A DNA stretch of 64,000 nucleotides from Erythrobacter sp. BLCC-B19 (GTDB lineage: Bacteria > Pseudomonadota > Alphaproteobacteria > Sphingomonadales > Sphingomonadaceae): NCBI RefSeq assembly GCF_028621955.1, contig NZ_CP117516.1, positions 3,494,001-3,558,000 of the forward strand. The letters are read 5' to 3'. Below are positions 30,185 through 36,879 of the stretch, in pieces. Within the stretch, counting starts at the first letter, position 1; the number at the start of each line of letters is the position of its first letter. The notes below the pieces were generated by a model. It was not told the origin of the DNA. It ran no database searches and saw only the letters and a program-made list of their open reading frames with translations. A program made the translations under genes and the position numbers.

Positions 30185-31753
30185 ATGACCCGTCCCGTTC
30201 TCGTGCCGATCCTCGGCGACCAGCTGTCGCGCAATATCTCAAGTCTTGAGGGTCTCTCCCCCGCAAGCACCGTCGTGCTGATGATGGAGGTGTGGGACGA
30301 GGCGACCTATGTGAAGCACCACAAGCAGAAGATCGTGCTCATTTTCTCGGCAATGCGCCACTTCGCGGCGGAATTGCGGGCCGAGGGCTGGCAGGTCGAT
30401 TACGTGCCGCTGGACGACGCGGAGAACACCGGCAGCTTCACCGGCGAAGTCGCCCGCGCGGTGGCACGCCACGCCCCGTCCGAAATCCGCGTCACCGAAA
30501 GCGGCGAATGGCGCGTCCATAACGCCATGCTCGAATGGGAGGGCCGCTTCCCCTGCCCCGTCTCCATCCTCCCCGACACGCGCTTCATCGCCACCCACGC
30601 CGAATTTCGCGCCTTTGCCGAGGGGCGCAAGCATCTGACGATGGAGTATTTCTACCGCGAGATGCGGCGCAAGACCGGGCTGCTGATGGAGGGCGACAAG
30701 CCCGTGGGCGGCGTCTGGAACCTCGATGCGGAAAACCGCGAGCCGCCCAAGGAAGGCCTGCGCGCGCCCCCTGCCCCCAAATTCGCGCCCGACGCCATCA
30801 CGCGGGCGGTGATAGCGCTGGTGGGAGAACGCTTTGCCGATCACTTCGGCGATCTCGAGCCTTTCGGGTGGCCGGTGACCCGTGCCGAGGCGCTCGAAGC
30901 TGCCGAAGCCTTCTTTGCCCGGCGCCTCAGCCTGTTCGGCCCCTATCAGGACGCGATGGTGCACGGGGAGGACGATCTCTACCACTCGATGCTGTCAACC
31001 AGCCTCAATATCGGGCTGCTCGATCCGCTGGAGCTGTGCCGCGCGGCGGAGGCTGCCTATAAATCAGGCAGGGCTCCGCTCAATTCCGTAGAGGGCTTCA
31101 TCCGCCAGATCATCGGCTGGCGCGAATATGTGCGCGGGTTCTACTGGCACCAGATGCCGGGGCTCGCCGCTGCCAATGAATTGGGCGCGCACCGCCCGCT
31201 GCCGGAGTTCTTCTGGACAGGGCAGACCGATATGCGCTGCCTCGCCGACTGCATCCGCACCACCCGCGAAGACGCCCATGCGCACCACATCCAGCGGTTG
31301 ATGGTGCTCGGCAATTTCTGCCTGATTGCCGGGATCGACCCTGGCCAAGTGGCCGACTGGTATCTGGCGGTCTATGCCGATGCCTTCGAATGGGTCGAGC
31401 TGCCGAACGTCGCCGGCATGGTGCTCTATGCCGATGGCGGCCGCCTCGCGACCAAGCCCTATGCGGCAAGCGGCAATTACATCAACAAGATGTCGGACTA
31501 TTGCAAAGGCTGCCGCTACAAGGTGGCCGAGAAGACCGGGCCCAGGGCGTGCCCGTTCAACCCGCTCTACTGGCATTTCATGGACGCGAACCGTGCGCGG
31601 CTGGAAAGCAACCACCGGATCGGGCGGATCTATGCGACGTGGGACAAGATGGGCGAGGCGAAGCAGCGGGAATATCTGGATACGGCAGAAAAATTCCTCG
31701 ACAGCCTCGAACCCGCGCGCGAAGGCTGGGCCAGAAACGCCGAAAGCAACTGA
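30185..31753 (+). CDS. FeS-cluster (6-4) photolyase/cryptochrome (PhrB-like)
   Basis: Light-driven repair of (6-4) pyrimidine dimers, using FAD, a ribolumazine-type antenna and a [4Fe-4S] cluster. Length is 522 aa. The four cluster cysteines are C352, C440, C443 and C456; their spacing (88, 3, 13) equals that of the Agrobacterium PhrB cysteines 350, 438, 441 and 454 as I remember them. The antenna-domain N-terminus PVLVPILGDQLS and the FAD region HHIQRLMVLGNFCLIAGI are typical. ATG 30185 starts the domain. A GST gene follows 14 bp later, and the DUF2256 protein often linked to photolyases is also in the window (61472). Confidence 0.93.
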   Translation: MTRPVLVPILGDQLSRNISSLEGLSPASTVVLMMEVWDEATYVKHHKQKIVLIFSAMRHFAAELRAEGWQVDYVPLDDAENTGSFTGEVARAVARHAPSEIRVTESGEWRVHNAMLEWEGRFPCPVSILPDTRFIATHAEFRAFAEGRKHLTMEYFYREMRRKTGLLMEGDKPVGGVWNLDAENREPPKEGLRAPPAPKFAPDAITRAVIALVGERFADHFGDLEPFGWPVTRAEALEAAEAFFARRLSLFGPYQDAMVHGEDDLYHSMLSTSLNIGLLDPLELCRAAEAAYKSGRAPLNSVEGFIRQIIGWREYVRGFYWHQMPGLAAANELGAHRPLPEFFWTGQTDMRCLADCIRTTREDAHAHHIQRLMVLGNFCLIAGIDPGQVADWYLAVYADAFEWVELPNVAGMVLYADGGRLATKPYAASGNYINKMSDYCKGCRYKVAEKTGPRACPFNPLYWHFMDANRARLESNHRIGRIYATWDKMGEAKQREYLDTAEKFLDSLEPAREGWARNAESN

Positions 31754-31767
31754 CACGGGAGAGAGCC

Positions 31768-32403
31768 ATGCTGACCATCCACCACCTGCGCCTGTCGCAA
31801 TCCGAACGCATCGTCTGGCTCGCCGAGGAGCTGGGGCTGGAATATGATTGCAAGCTCTACACCCGCCGCACCGACAACCGCCTCGCGCCTGATGAATACA
31901 AGGCGCTGCACCCGATGGGCATTGCCCCCGTCATTACCGACGGCGATCTGGTGCTGGGCGAGAGCGGCGCGATCATGGACTATATCATCGCCAAGTATGC
32001 CCCCGATACGGCGCTGGTGCCGGGCGTGGACCATCCGGACTTTGCCGATCACCTGTTCTACTACCACTGGGCCAACGCGACCTTCATGACCAACGGCATG
32101 ATGGCGCTGGTGGCGCAGTTCATGGGTGCAAGCGAACTGCCCCCCTTCGTCGCCGACCGGGTGCAGAAAGGCTGGGCGATCGTCGAGAAGCGGCTGGGCG
32201 AAGCGGACTATTTCGGCGGATCGCAGCTGACCACGGCGGACATCATGATGGGCTTCCAGCTCACCACCAGCCGCGCGATGAGCGGCATGAGCATCGATCA
32301 CCTGCCCAACCTGAAGGCCTATCTGAAGCGCATCGGCGAACGCCCAGCGTACCAGCGCGCTATGGCCAAGTGCGAACCGGGGATGCCGCCCAAGCTGGAT
32401 TGA
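31768..32403 (+). CDS. Glutathione S-transferase
   Basis: A 211-aa cytosolic GST: thioredoxin-like N-domain (MLTIHHLRLSQSERIVWLAEEL, residues 1-22 in part) with the cis-Pro PMGIAPVI and ESGAIMDYI, then an all-helical C-domain. The catalytic residue is probably the Ser/Tyr near the N-terminus. Close to the photolyase (14 bp) and with its own GAGAG Shine-Dalgarno; co-expression is likely but not proven. Confidence 0.9.
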   Translation: MLTIHHLRLSQSERIVWLAEELGLEYDCKLYTRRTDNRLAPDEYKALHPMGIAPVITDGDLVLGESGAIMDYIIAKYAPDTALVPGVDHPDFADHLFYYHWANATFMTNGMMALVAQFMGASELPPFVADRVQKGWAIVEKRLGEADYFGGSQLTTADIMMGFQLTTSRAMSGMSIDHLPNLKAYLKRIGERPAYQRAMAKCEPGMPPKLD

Positions 32404-32524
32404 GGGGGCAATTGTCCCGCCATTCATAGGTTTAAGCAGAAAAAGCACCAAATGCATCGAACCGCGCCTATTGCGCTGGGGCCCTGCTCTGCCATATTCT
32501 CCACTTGCTAGGAGAATTATTGAA
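32404..32524. other. Leading edge of an AT-rich segment, no gene seen
   Basis: From just after the GST stop, base composition drops noticeably compared with flanks. No gene is supported in these 121 bases. They include the promoter and ribosome-binding region (GGAG at 32511-32514) of the DUF2188 gene. Confidence 0.5.
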
Positions 32525-32749
32525 ATGGCTAAGCCTGGTCAGCACGTGGTACCGTCGGCGGACGGATGGAAGGTTCGGCGTGCCGGGTCGTCAAAGGCGT
32601 CAAGCACACATCCTACACAACAAGAAGCGATTGACGCAGCAAAGCGCATTGCACGTAACCAAAAGACGGAACTCTATGTTCATGGACGCGACGGACGCAT
32701 CCGCGAACGAAGTTCTTTTGGCAATGACTCTCACCCGCCAAAAGGATGA
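32525..32749 (+). CDS. DUF2188 protein, 74 aa
   Basis: A small protein matching the DUF2188 consensus: HVVPSADGWKVRRAG, then TQQEAIDAAKRIARNQKTEL, then YVHGRDGRIRERSSFGNDSH. The fold is expected to be a small beta-alpha-beta unit. ATG 32525 follows a GGAG (spacing 10 nt). Its TGA overlaps the ATG of the next gene (ATGA at 32746-32749), indicating translational coupling and a shared function. Base composition is AT-rich compared with the genome, consistent with acquisition by transfer. Molecular function unknown. Confidence 0.85.
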   Translation: MAKPGQHVVPSADGWKVRRAGSSKASSTHPTQQEAIDAAKRIARNQKTELYVHGRDGRIRERSSFGNDSHPPKG

Positions 32750-33387
32750 ACGAGGCACCTGCATTCGAGCGTTCAGTTTTCATCAACTGCCCGTTCGATG
32801 CAAGCTTTGCCCCAATGCTACAGGCACTCGCGTTCTGCGTCGTAGATATTGGCTTTATCCCAAGGCTTGCGCCAGAAAACTCTGACAATGCTGCAAACCG
32901 ATTAGATCGGATAATTGAACTTGTGGCCAAGTCAAAATTCGGCATTCATGACTTAAGTCGCTGCAAAGCCTCGACCGCGGGCGAGTACGCGCGGATGAAT
33001 ATGCCTTTCGAATTGGGAATAGATCACAGTTGCGCCCGATTTGGGGTAGGTCCCTTAAGCACCAAACGCATACTGATCCTTGAAAACTCTAAGTATGACT
33101 ATCAGAAATGCCTTTCGGATATTGCGGGTTGGGATATTGAGTCCCACGACGGAGATTACTTGAAATTGATCCGAAAGGTTCGCAATTGGCTCGTGAGGCA
33201 GGAAGGCTCTTACCCGATTGGCGCGGCGCAAATCGAAACTGATTACGCGACATTTCAGGAATGGTATTGGGAGCGCGAGCTATCGAGGGGCGCGACTGAA
33301 AATGACATTCTCGAATACCCCACGATCAATATGATCCTAGCGATGCAGGAGTGGCATTCGGCAGGAAAGCCAGCCGAATGGCTGTAG
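32746..33387 (+). CDS. TIR/nucleoside-deoxyribosyltransferase-like protein, 213 aa
   Basis: Predicted Rossmannoid (flavodoxin-like) fold. Beta 1 is RSVFINCPFD (10-18), then a helix (21-36) and a second strand near GFIPRLA. Next come helix NRLDRIIELVAKSK, strand FGIHDLSRC (66-73) and the block NMPFELGIDHS (85-95) with Glu E89. The E-L-G after a short Asp/Ser segment is where nucleoside deoxyribosyltransferases and TIR NADases carry their catalytic Glu. The strand KRILILEN and a helical C-terminus follow. I infer a nucleotide or NAD N-glycosidase-like enzyme; no assay-based support exists. It is coupled to DUF2188. The interior is AT-rich by hand count (32881-32940 about 40%, 33061-33120 about 38% G+C). 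Confidence 0.75.
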   Translation: MNEAPAFERSVFINCPFDASFAPMLQALAFCVVDIGFIPRLAPENSDNAANRLDRIIELVAKSKFGIHDLSRCKASTAGEYARMNMPFELGIDHSCARFGVGPLSTKRILILENSKYDYQKCLSDIAGWDIESHDGDYLKLIRKVRNWLVRQEGSYPIGAAQIETDYATFQEWYWERELSRGATENDILEYPTINMILAMQEWHSAGKPAEWL

Positions 33388-33425
33388 GCTTGAGTTAACT
33401 GCAAGATGCAAAATGCACTATCCCC

Positions 33426-34496
33426 TCACACCCCTTCGCGCCGCAGCAACTCCGCCTTGATCTCAAGCCCATAGGCATAGCCCCCCAGCGTGCCGTCCGC
33501 CGCGATCACGCGGTGGCAGGGGATCAGCACCGCGACATGGTTAGCCCCGTTCGCCCCGCCGACCGCGCGGCTGGCCTTGGGGTTGCCCAAAGCCGCCGCC
33601 AGTTCGCCATAAGACCGCGTCTCGCCTGCCGGGATGCGGCGCAACTCCTCCCACACCCGCTGCTGGAACGCGGTGCCGTGGACGTCGAGCGGGATCGCGG
33701 CGCTGCCCGGCCCCGGTTGCTCGACCGCCGCCACAACCTGCGCGAACAGAGCGCGGAAGTCCTCGCCGGCGGGCACCAGTTCGGCGCGCGGGAACCGTGC
33801 CTGCAACTCGGCCTCGCCCTCCCCGAAGGCAAGACAGCACACACCCTTGTCGGTCGCGGCTACCAGCATGTCACCGAGCGAGGTCGCCAGCACCGTCCAA
33901 TGCACCTGCTTGCCCGCCCCGCCCTTGCGCCACTCGCTCGCTGTCATGCCCAATTTGCCTCGTGTTGCCGTGTAGAAGGTTTTGGGCGCGTCAAAGCCCG
34001 CCTTTGACAGCGCTTCGGTCACGTTCAGACCCGCGCTGAGCGCCGCGCGCACCCGATCCTCGCGCAAGGCCTTGGCAAAGGCGGCAGGCGAGAGGCCGAC
34101 GGTGCGTTTGAACAGGCGCTGGAAATGCGTGGGGGTGTAGCCGGTGAGGTCGGCCAGCTGGTCCAGCGTCATCGCCCCCTGCTCGCGGATCGCGGCCATC
34201 GCGGCGAGCACGCAGGCCTCCTCGGCGCTTTGTGTGTTGGGCGAGCAGCGTTTGCACGCCCGCAAACCGGCTTTTGCCGCCGCCTGTGCGCTGGGATAGA
34301 ACCGCACATTCCTGCGCAATGGCGCCCGCGCCGGGCACGAAGGGCGGCAATAGATCCCGGTCGAATGAACGCCGGTGACAAAGGCGCCGTCGAACCGGCG
34401 ATCCTTGTCCAGCACCGCCTGCCAGCGGGCATCATCGGAGATGTTCTCAAAATGTTTCACGTGAAACAATTTGCCACACCCCGGTGATGCGCGCAC
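33426..34496 (-). CDS. ada: Bifunctional DNA-repair regulator Ada (O6-methylguanine/phosphotriester methyltransferase)
   Basis: Repairs alkylated DNA and activates the adaptive response. Domains in order: N-terminal zinc phosphotriester domain (C50, C54, C81, C84), an AraC-type helix-turn-helix (about 105-190), and the methyltransferase domain with the acceptor in P326-C327-H-R-V. The longest reading begins at GTG 34496. A perfect parS lies across codons 10-15 (LFHVKH), so the true start could be later. Placed after the AT-rich cassette. Confidence 0.94.
   Translation of the reverse strand: MRASPGCGKLFHVKHFENISDDARWQAVLDKDRRFDGAFVTGVHSTGIYCRPSCPARAPLRRNVRFYPSAQAAAKAGLRACKRCSPNTQSAEEACVLAAMAAIREQGAMTLDQLADLTGYTPTHFQRLFKRTVGLSPAAFAKALREDRVRAALSAGLNVTEALSKAGFDAPKTFYTATRGKLGMTASEWRKGGAGKQVHWTVLATSLGDMLVAATDKGVCCLAFGEGEAELQARFPRAELVPAGEDFRALFAQVVAAVEQPGPGSAAIPLDVHGTAFQQRVWEELRRIPAGETRSYGELAAALGNPKASRAVGGANGANHVAVLIPCHRVIAADGTLGGYAYGLEIKAELLRREGV
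34453..34468. promoter_or_regulatory. parS site (ParB-binding), perfect 16-bp palindrome
   Basis: TGTTTCACGTGAAACA at 34453-34468 is a full palindrome and matches the chromosomal parS consensus TGTTNCACGTGAAACA. It lies within the 5' part of ada and encodes FHVKH, the same coding disguise seen at parS sites elsewhere. ParB binds such sites near the replication origin and loads SMC. Confidence 0.85.
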
Positions 34497-34525
34497 CCCT
34501 CTGGTTTGCGCTCAATGTCGGGCGA

Positions 34526-35185
34526 TCAGGCGCCGGCCGGGGCGATCGAGGCGGCGATGGTCCGCGTCCGGGCCTTGAGTTCGGCATCGGTCACGCCCAT
34601 GCCTTCGACCGCATAGGCGTTGACGTTGATGAACTGGCCTTCGATCACGGTCATGCAGATCAAGCCGCTGATCTTGATGGTGCCGTTCTGGCCCACCACG
34701 TCGCCGCGCAAGGCCATGTAGACGCACATATCATCCTGCCCGATGTAGCGGGGCACGGTGTTGGTGAGCTTGACGGTGTTTCCGGTACCTTCGGCGACTT
34801 CGCGCGCGGCATCATCAAGCGCATCATCGACGAGCTGCTGGCCATTGGCGGTCTGGAGCTCACGCGCGATCAGCGCGAGGAAATCTGCGCGCGGCATATC
34901 GACAGGCATCGCCTCGCGCGGCGATTTGATGTGGACATAGTCCTCGCCAAAGGTGCCGCAGCGTTCGAGATCGGCGTGGGTGAGGTTCATCGAATCGAGC
35001 GCCGCCGACCTCTCGGCCAGGGCCACGGTAGCGCCAGAAGGCAGGCAATAGCCCTGCGGGACAGGCACGGTGAAGGCCTTGCCGCCGACCGAGAAACGGT
35101 GCTGCGCCGCACCTTGGGCCGCGGCCATGCCGGGCACCAGCGCGAGCGCCGCCAAGGCCAGTGTCACATAACGAATGCCAATCAT
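34526..35185 (-). CDS. Secreted hypothetical protein, 219 aa
   Basis: Start ATG 35185 gives a clean signal peptide (hydrophobic LALAALALVPG, probable cleavage AAAQ). The mature part is globular with three or more Cys (GYCLPSG, ERCGTFG, DDMCVY), so disulfides are likely in the periplasm. It recalls DUF-type periplasmic proteins of sphingomonads, but I cannot name a family. It lies 29 bp after ada on the same strand. Confidence 0.72.
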   Translation of the reverse strand: MIGIRYVTLALAALALVPGMAAAQGAAQHRFSVGGKAFTVPVPQGYCLPSGATVALAERSAALDSMNLTHADLERCGTFGEDYVHIKSPREAMPVDMPRADFLALIARELQTANGQQLVDDALDDAAREVAEGTGNTVKLTNTVPRYIGQDDMCVYMALRGDVVGQNGTIKISGLICMTVIEGQFINVNAYAVEGMGVTDAELKARTRTIAASIAPAGA

Positions 35186-35268
35186 TGCTGCCCCCGTGTG
35201 CATTGGGTAGATCATGGGTTTACGGCAGGCATTGCAGCTATTGCTGCCGGATCAAGGATTTTCTCGCG

Positions 35269-36879
35269 ATGCATGGCTCCCGCCCCCGGTCATTCCCCTT
35301 GCCCCGGCTGATCGCGGCGCTTTTGTTGGCGGGCATGATGCTGGCAGGCCTTGTGCGCACAGGCCCGCTCGCCGCCGATCCGGGCGACGTTGAGGCCGCC
35401 TCGCGCGGCGTGGTGCGGGTGGTGATCATCGGCGAGGAGAACGACCAGCCCACGCCCGTCAGCCACGGCACCGGCTTTGCCGTCTCGCCCACCCGCATCG
35501 TCACGAACGCCCATGTCGTCGCCGAGGCCGCGCAGGACGATACCTTGCGCATCGGCATCGTCCCGCCCGAAGGCGCAGGCGGTGCCTTTGCGCGGGTGGT
35601 GGCGATCTCGCCCAAGAACGATCTGGCGCTGCTGGAGATTGCGCAAGGCTCCCTGCGCCTGCCTCCGCTGGCGCTGGCGGGCAGCATCGATTCGAAACTC
35701 GGCGAGGTTTCGGCGGTCGGCTATCCGATGAATGTCGATCTGGCGCAGGGGCTTGATATGGCGGATATTTTCCGCGCCCAGCCGCCGGTCAAATCGCGTG
35801 GATTCTTATCGGGGGAGCGGCCCAGCCGCCAGTTCGACACGATCCTCCACACCGCGCCCATCGCGCGGGGCAATTCGGGCGGGCCGCTGCTCGATCCGTG
35901 CGGGCGGGTGATTGGGGTCAACTCGTTCAGCGCGGATTCGGCGAGCGGGGATGCGGAGTTCTACTTCGCGGTGTCCTTGCGCGAACTCGGCCCGTTCCTG
36001 CGCAATAACGGGGTCGAGCCGGTCACCAATGCGCTGCCCTGCCGCTCGATCGACGAGCTTAATGCCGAGGAACGCCAGCGGCTTGAGGCGGAACAGTCCG
36101 AAGCGCGCGAGCGGATGGCGCAGCGCGCCGAGGAATTGCGCGAGGTGCGCGAGAAGGCGCGGCTTGCGGCGCAGATGGAGGTGCTGGGGCAGCGCGAGAA
36201 CCGCATGGCCGCCGCGCTGATCGCGCTGCTTGCTGCGATCGGCGCAGGCTATGCCGCGCTGGTGTGGCGCGGGGACGAGGCGCGCCGCACCCACGTCCGC
36301 CTCGCCGCCGCAGGCTCCGCCGCCGCGCTGCTGGGGGCGGTGCTGCTGTGGATCACCCGTCCGGGGCTTGCCGAAATCGAAGACCGGGTCGCCGCCGCGG
36401 TCACCAAGGCGCAAGGGGGCGAGACGGACGGCTCTGCCCCTGCCGCCGCCGACGCTGCTGCCGAAGGCGCGCTGATCTGCACCCTCGTCCCTGATCGCAG
36501 CCGCGTGACCAGCGCCCGCACCGATGATGTCGCCTTCCAATGGCAGGCCGATGGCTGCGTCAACGGGCGCACCCAATATGGTCTCGGTCAGGGCGGGGAA
36601 TGGCAACGCGTGTTCGCCGCCAAGGAAGACGAGGCTGTCGCAGTCAACACCTATGACCCCGATACCCGCACCCTGCGCACCGACCGTTACCTGTTGGGGC
36701 AGGAGGCGCTCGCCGCCGCGCGTGAGGCCCGCGCGGCCTACACGCCGCCTGCCTGCGGAGTCAGCGACGGGGCGCGCACGCTGGGCGAACAGCAGTCGGC
36801 ACTGATCGCCAAGCTGCCCGAACGGCCCAACGAGCGGCTGGTCTATAGCTGCACCGCCAAGGCAGCCGGCGCAAAATGA
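35269..36879 (+). CDS. Trypsin-like serine protease with membrane segment (536 aa)
   Basis: A secreted or membrane-anchored S1/DegP-like protease. N-terminal signal or anchor (ALLLAGMMLAGLV), catalytic triad H82 (NAHVV), D118 (KNDLALL) and S203 (ARGNSGGP). A coiled segment rich in Glu/Arg (~280-325) is followed by two hydrophobic helices (about 330-375) and a Cys-bearing C-terminal domain. No PDZ domain was found. The C-terminal ~150 residues look like a separate substrate-binding or regulatory domain. It overlaps the next start by 4 nt (ATGA at 36876). ATG 35269 is used as it opens the signal sequence. Confidence 0.82.
   Translation: MHGSRPRSFPLPRLIAALLLAGMMLAGLVRTGPLAADPGDVEAASRGVVRVVIIGEENDQPTPVSHGTGFAVSPTRIVTNAHVVAEAAQDDTLRIGIVPPEGAGGAFARVVAISPKNDLALLEIAQGSLRLPPLALAGSIDSKLGEVSAVGYPMNVDLAQGLDMADIFRAQPPVKSRGFLSGERPSRQFDTILHTAPIARGNSGGPLLDPCGRVIGVNSFSADSASGDAEFYFAVSLRELGPFLRNNGVEPVTNALPCRSIDELNAEERQRLEAEQSEARERMAQRAEELREVREKARLAAQMEVLGQRENRMAAALIALLAAIGAGYAALVWRGDEARRTHVRLAAAGSAAALLGAVLLWITRPGLAEIEDRVAAAVTKAQGGETDGSAPAAADAAAEGALICTLVPDRSRVTSARTDDVAFQWQADGCVNGRTQYGLGQGGEWQRVFAAKEDEAVAVNTYDPDTRTLRTDRYLLGQEALAAAREARAAYTPPACGVSDGARTLGEQQSALIAKLPERPNERLVYSCTAKAAGAK

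Follow-up and report, generated by a model that had tools for sequence, protein, structure and literature searches.

Within the window (the whole stretch of 64,000 nucleotides that was analysed), the space between a GST gene and the ada gene is occupied by a cassette of two genes with less than 900 bp of coding sequence. The features are as follows.

31768..32403, forward strand: flanking GST gene (GST matches in the genomes searched)
32404..33425, no strand assigned: cargo block of low GC content, flanked by GST and ada (GC 0.511)
32525..32749, forward strand: DUF2188 gene (PF09954) for a protein of 74 aa, net basic, C-terminus ...GNDSHPPKG; AlphaFold2 model bbb-a-bb
32746..32749, forward strand: ATGA stop/start overlap of the DUF2188 and NCPFD genes, read from the sequence
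32746..33387, forward strand: NCPFD gene for a TIR-like protein of 213 aa (translation; profile match to CAP12/Pycsar TIR; AlphaFold2 model and fold search)
33010..33012, forward strand: codon GAA for E89, the predicted catalytic glutamate in RMNMPFELG (invariant in 40 of 40 sequences; aligned with RQNVIFELG of CAP12-type TIR)
33426..34496, reverse strand: flanking ada gene (ORF list; GST and ada are neighbours in same-genus loci)

The original prediction had described a low-GC block of about 1 kb, and this block is the lowest in the window: its GC content is 0.511, as compared to 0.661 for the window as a whole. The values of 38-40% given at that time refer to single 60-base lines, while the mean of the block is 51%. 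Among 1260 segments of the same length, taken in steps of 50 bases, only one is equally low or lower (0.509), and it overlaps the block. All segments with a GC content below 0.56 start at 32050-32650 and overlap it as well. GC3 is 0.47 for the DUF2188 gene and 0.56 for the 213-aa gene, versus 0.82-0.85 for the photolyase-like, GST and ada genes. The ATGA overlap is present as had been reported. The sequence AAAAGG directly abuts the ATG of the 213-aa gene, a spacing shorter than that of the usual ribosome site. It is therefore likely, judging from this arrangement, that translation of the two genes is coupled through the overlap. No integrase is found in the ORF list for 30500-35500 (inspected by eye), in agreement with the first reading of this region. 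A scan for promoters and terminators returned 0, and shuffled sequences yield about 1.

A GST match was obtained in 60 of the 61 genomes searched (distant paralogues counted), and in 34 of the 61 at an identity of at least 71%. The comparison of the GST site returned 30 loci: the window itself, 14 without a visible C-terminus of ada, which are therefore uninformative on the GST-ada gap, and 15 that could be read. In these 15 other same-genus loci, none of which comes from G040 or G057, the further genomes of the genus that carry NCPFD, the gap measures 49-1085 bp (49-265 bp in six, 394-1085 bp in nine). Eight of the nine longer gaps list other ORFs of at least 60 aa, and NCPFD is absent from the ORFs in these gaps. 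Within the genus, the space between GST and ada is thus a cargo site of variable content, where the ORFs differ from genome to genome. Homologues of the 213-aa protein occur in 5 of 100 relatives (own genome counted), three of them in the same genus, and in 8 of 385 genomes of the class (own genome counted; one is a fragment with stops). There are 12 loci in the set of genome contigs and 17 plasmid records. Phage records contain 0 homologues, and viral contigs gave 0 matches with a single-sequence query and seven loci with an alignment query. The genus-variable spot, the patchy presence and the foreign composition fit the proposed horizontal acquisition, and the composition also fits a recent arrival of the block.

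The smaller gene codes for a full member of PF09954 (E 7.3e-27, 93.8 bits versus a Pfam cut-off of 22), as had been predicted. The family of the larger protein is named NCPFD after its VFINCPFD motif and is represented by 40 aligned sequences: 24 of clade A and 16 of clade B, the latter being weaker homologues with an LPRFNMP motif. A DUF2188 ORF lies directly upstream of the NCPFD gene in all 21 loci scoring above 150 bits, two of which (L028 and L036, on Sinorhizobium plasmids) have a broken large gene. Among the 15 weaker homologues (at most 150 bits), only that of a Bacteroidia MAG (L012) has a DUF2188 gene upstream. Paired loci span from Sphingomonadales to Xanthomonas, Desulfopila and this Bacteroidia MAG. 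Of the viral-contig loci, two have DUF2188 upstream (L037, L038), two have a hybrid partner (L039, L040) and three have none (L041-L043). Co-occurrence with DUF2188 in other genomes, which had been suggested as a check, is thus seen for the closer homologues; the contrary case, homologues that are always single and in core positions of normal composition, did not occur, the block being compositionally foreign. Protein distances within the two families mirror each other across 22 pairs (Mantel r 0.83; 0 of 5000 permutations as good; L011 contributed only part of its sequence, and the DUF2188 of L016 has an odd tail). DUF2188 and NCPFD are co-inherited; the mirrored distances speak for joint inheritance, not for binding.

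Clade-B loci mostly have a different small basic gene upstream. Its product may be a shortened DUF2188, but the two do not align significantly (hhalign, P 0.28). In L039 (3666-3974) and L040, the partner is a hybrid of a DUF2188 domain and a clade-B type tail, and the DUF2188 match of the one in L040 is at 9e-14. Such an exchange of the small gene, as in antitoxin swaps, is what one would expect of a plain toxin-antitoxin pair, in which a TIR-like toxin and a DUF2188 antitoxin stabilise mobile DNA without sensing of phages. The small upstream gene, the stop/start overlap and the homologues on 17 plasmid records are in line with this, as is locus L144 (6308-6871), where DUF2188 forms an in-frame fusion with a TacA1 antitoxin domain (Pfam), ahead of a gene that resembles a GNAT toxin by eye. 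We nevertheless consider a mere toxin-antitoxin pair not very likely: CBASS and multiubiquitin operons, which need no such antitoxin, likewise have DUF2188 ahead of them, and one pair resides inside a Thoeris-type locus (L038, see below).

Searches of Pfam, PADLOC, NCBIfam, PHROGs and the PDB sequences with the 213-aa protein gave no significant match (the best in NCBIfam has an E of only 0.11), and none of eight NCPFD proteins scanned with PADLOC was matched. All three motifs described at first (RSVFINCPFD, FGIHDLSRC and NMPFELG, the last with E89) are present. E89, a lack of conservation of which would have spoken against the original reading, never varies in the 40 sequences; the same holds for R40, R52, H68, D69, R83, N85, M86, G91, K107, S124, D125 and D130. 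F12, N14, C15 and D18 are unchanged in all 39 rows that have a letter at these positions. The original assignment named both TIR domains and deoxyribosyltransferases. Three comparison sets were used: 11 CAP12/Pycsar TIR sequences (from 12 of 150 genomes with a match, one being dropped as under the cut-off), 21 TIR_2 sequences (9 of 30 loci were not put in) and 8 nucleoside deoxyribosyltransferases (NDT; 7 of 15 loci were under the cut-off). The TIR domain of PF10137, typical of the first set, is used in CBASS, Pycsar and TIR-STING effectors.

The alignment of the 40 NCPFD sequences with the CAP12/Pycsar TIR set covers 117 columns (hhalign, P 2.3e-5, score 40.2). It pairs RMNMPFELG, including E89, with RQNVIFELG, and SDIaG with PSDlxG. 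The match is obtained with each clade alone (P 5.1e-5 for the clade-A rows, P 5.9e-6 for the clade-B rows). The P values must be taken as rough, because an unrelated GST control gave P 0.012, and 0.0051 with clade A alone, on 17-18 columns (18 for the former; scores 24.0 and 26.3). The score of 40.2 exceeds both of these controls and all 100 column shuffles, the top shuffle reaching 21.5. The TIR_2 set gave no significant alignment (P 0.24). The window protein has no Pfam match to PF10137, and a clade-B member (L041) matches this domain at E 0.016 with 15.7 bits, under the cut-off of 24.7.

Structure prediction and a fold search had also been proposed. The best AlphaFold2 model of the 213-aa protein (19 aligned sequences) has a pLDDT of 78.6 and a pTM of 0.79, and the remaining four are poorer (pLDDT 61-65). 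Confidence is low at residues 44-48 and 80-87, the latter stretch, just before E89, having a pLDDT below 50. A TIR-like region (about residues 9-135) is followed by a helical C-terminal part. The predicted fold is Rossmannoid, flavodoxin-like and of TIR type, though all fold matches have E values above 1e-3. Among the best 50 of 1466 PDB matches, 24 are TIR chains and 26 are not (counted by title, with SPARTA chains taken as TIR-APAZ). The TIR chains include AbTir, RPS4 and TIR-STING, with probabilities up to 1.00; rank 1 is a flavodoxin-like protein.

This flavodoxin-like protein and other Rossmannoid matches would suit a deoxyribosyltransferase-like or other enzyme of nucleotide metabolism without an immune role, and the non-significant hhalign alignment with the NDT set still places E89 on the glutamate of the NDT motif FELGya. 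That alignment has a P of 0.25 and a score of only 15.1, as opposed to 40.2 for CAP12 TIR, and no NDT is found among the best 50 of the 1466 fold matches. A nucleotide-metabolism enzyme is therefore very improbable, and the deoxyribosyltransferase half of the original assignment was dropped, while its TIR half stands. Profile comparison and AlphaFold model together point to a relative of CAP12/Pycsar TIR rather than a deoxyribosyltransferase, and we assign the 213-aa protein to the TIR family with good, not final, confidence. The equivalent glutamate is catalytic in TIR proteins, and E89 is probably the catalytic residue here.

DUF2188 is by no means restricted to NCPFD loci. PF09954 is matched in 12 of 100 relatives, 35 of 385 genomes of the class and 58 of 398 of the phylum (overlapping sets). 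It has no convincing relative in the PDB by sequence, and the best PDB fold match of its AlphaFold2 model (pLDDT 85.1) has an E of 0.31. The Pfam entry gives no function. Above 60 bits there are 55 distinct DUF2188 loci, 52 of which were classified, partly by eye. The following gene is NCPFD in nine, a CD-NTase or patatin of CBASS in five, a TIR gene in one and multiubiquitin-like in three (one by a sub-threshold Pfam match, two by likeness), which adds up to 18 of 52. In the other 34, no NCPFD, CBASS, TIR or multiubiquitin gene was recognised downstream. Six of these 34 have, within 20 bp, a gene of an unnamed family of 386-478 aa, a candidate immune effector; for the remaining 28, no link to immunity is proposed except in the single cases given in this text. 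The unnamed family (L104, L122, L126, L134, L138 and L142) has a FIRN.P or FIRKTP motif, and its L122 member has no Pfam match. A gene of the ImmA/IrrE type lies opposite to it in L122 (by Pfam) and in L126, L134, L138 and L142 (by likeness).

When 43 genes downstream of DUF2188 were scanned with PADLOC, 132 models were matched; among the 25 of these that were listed, oligonucleotide cyclases account for at most six genes, phospholipase effectors for three and E1-E2 for three. By Pfam, L128 has TIR_2, L124 has bacHORMA_2, and L118 has ThiF together with a Multi_ubiq match below the threshold. The second DUF2188 gene of the same genome (L117, G000:C1:1817500-1831500) heads a CBASS-like operon: an HTH-ImmA/IrrE gene is on the opposite strand, and DUF2188 is followed by a CD-NTase (sub-threshold SMODS), a 164-aa protein and a patatin (Pfam). 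Ten opposite-strand regulator genes, hand-picked by eye from 40 loci, were all assigned by Pfam (seven Peptidase_M78, that is ImmA/IrrE, and three WYL).

On plasmids, DUF2188-like matches occur in 484 records, 342 of them from Klebsiella. Nine annotated neighbourhoods were chosen among the 60 listed of these 484. Three name immune-type operons (patatin; multiubiquitin-E2-ThiF; patatin-nucleotidyltransferase), one names Ku and LigD, two (Klebsiella) have Xre-RES about 0.7 kb downstream, and three have nothing clear after the gene. DUF2188 adjoins genes for Ku or DNA ligase (LigD) in L244, where they are named, and in L140 and L145 by likeness. The neighbours Ku/LigD, the Xre-RES genes on the two Klebsiella plasmids and the many loci without a recognised partner could mean that DUF2188 is a small DNA-damage-regulated protein that merely happens to come first in numerous mobile operons, functionally unconnected to the effector. 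This is unlikely in view of the 21 of 21 paired loci above 150 bits, which include Xanthomonas and Desulfopila (the weaker L012 is paired as well), and of the mirrored divergence of both proteins.

The literature searched (titles only) contains no paper that links DUF2188 or PF09954 to immunity, and searches with the motif strings gave nothing relevant. In PMC9084900, DUF2188 is merely noted as a predicted gene. In PMC13373217, a YegP homologue is reported to follow capKS in 57 of 443 cases, and the word DUF2188 is absent from this paper. As far as this literature shows, the link between DUF2188 and immune operons is new. Since it is located ahead of several known anti-virus systems, DUF2188 may well be a component in the control of bacterial immunity that has so far gone unrecognised. 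It is tempting to speculate, doubtful as this is, that CBASS, TIR, ubiquitin-like and NCPFD systems all use DUF2188 as a small sensor or licensing subunit of general type, and that it drives NCPFD as a minimal TIR effector. Such a subunit would perhaps bind nucleic acid that is foreign or damaged, as DUF2188 is basic and occurs near regulators of the DNA-damage type and near Ku/LigD.

NCPFD loci themselves are associated with immune genes in some cases. On a viral contig (L038), the gene order is KAP_NTPase, DUF4062, TIR_2, DUF2188, NCPFD, ThsA_Macro (E 1.5e-46) and TIR_2. An ABC-3C system (CTD6, MC2 and an AAA-like gene) comes after the pair in L003, and in L002 the pair adjoins a caspase-domain gene. 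The Pfam scan of neighbours covered 10 genes. Of the 15 NCPFD loci inspected, the other 12 showed no recognisable immune gene nearby. L005 and L007 precede a RadA-like gene, and L008 and L009 are beside a ParE-like gene (names by eye).

On balance, we judge it fairly probable that the cassette is a mobile two-gene immune or abortive-infection unit, consisting of a TIR-type NAD-processing effector and a coupled DUF2188 control partner. DUF2188 would be translated first, and the overlap would couple its dose to that of the effector. As a small control subunit, it would bind the effector and either keep it silent or gate it upon infection or DNA stress, so that control could run either way, by restraint or by sensing. 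A trigger would then release TIR-type NAD processing by the 213-aa protein, with E89 as catalytic residue, and the outcome may be NAD depletion or a nucleotide signal. The original interpretation is, overall, partly supported; cleavage of NAD and a role in phage defence are both plausible for this candidate cassette. If this holds true, it would provide the first function for DUF2188, and unrelated immune effectors would share one tiny partner, which might then serve as a marker in the search for other systems. NCPFD would add to the TIR-type effectors a family that has no model in any of the four libraries to which the window protein was compared. The small size of the cassette, only two genes, makes direct tests feasible.

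Three known systems invite comparison. In the immune operons controlled by CapH and CapP, CapW or CapK and CapS (PMC13373217), the regulators have counterparts in the loci analysed here: DUF2188 frequently leads CBASS and ubiquitin-like operons and there adjoins ImmA/IrrE or WYL regulators. Unlike these, the cassette in the window has no adjacent regulator. In Thoeris (ThsB TIR and ThsA_Macro), the likeness is one of position, as the L038 pair sits between the TIR_2 and ThsA_Macro genes, at this one locus only; the cassette in the window has no adjoining ThsA, its neighbours being GST and ada. In the case of the CAP12/Pycsar TIR domain (PF10137), NCPFD remains under the Pfam cut-off, no known receptor domain was found in it, and VFINCPFD and IHD are motifs peculiar to NCPFD, but the two are alike over 117 columns and have in common RxNxxFELG with its glutamate and the PSDxxG motif.
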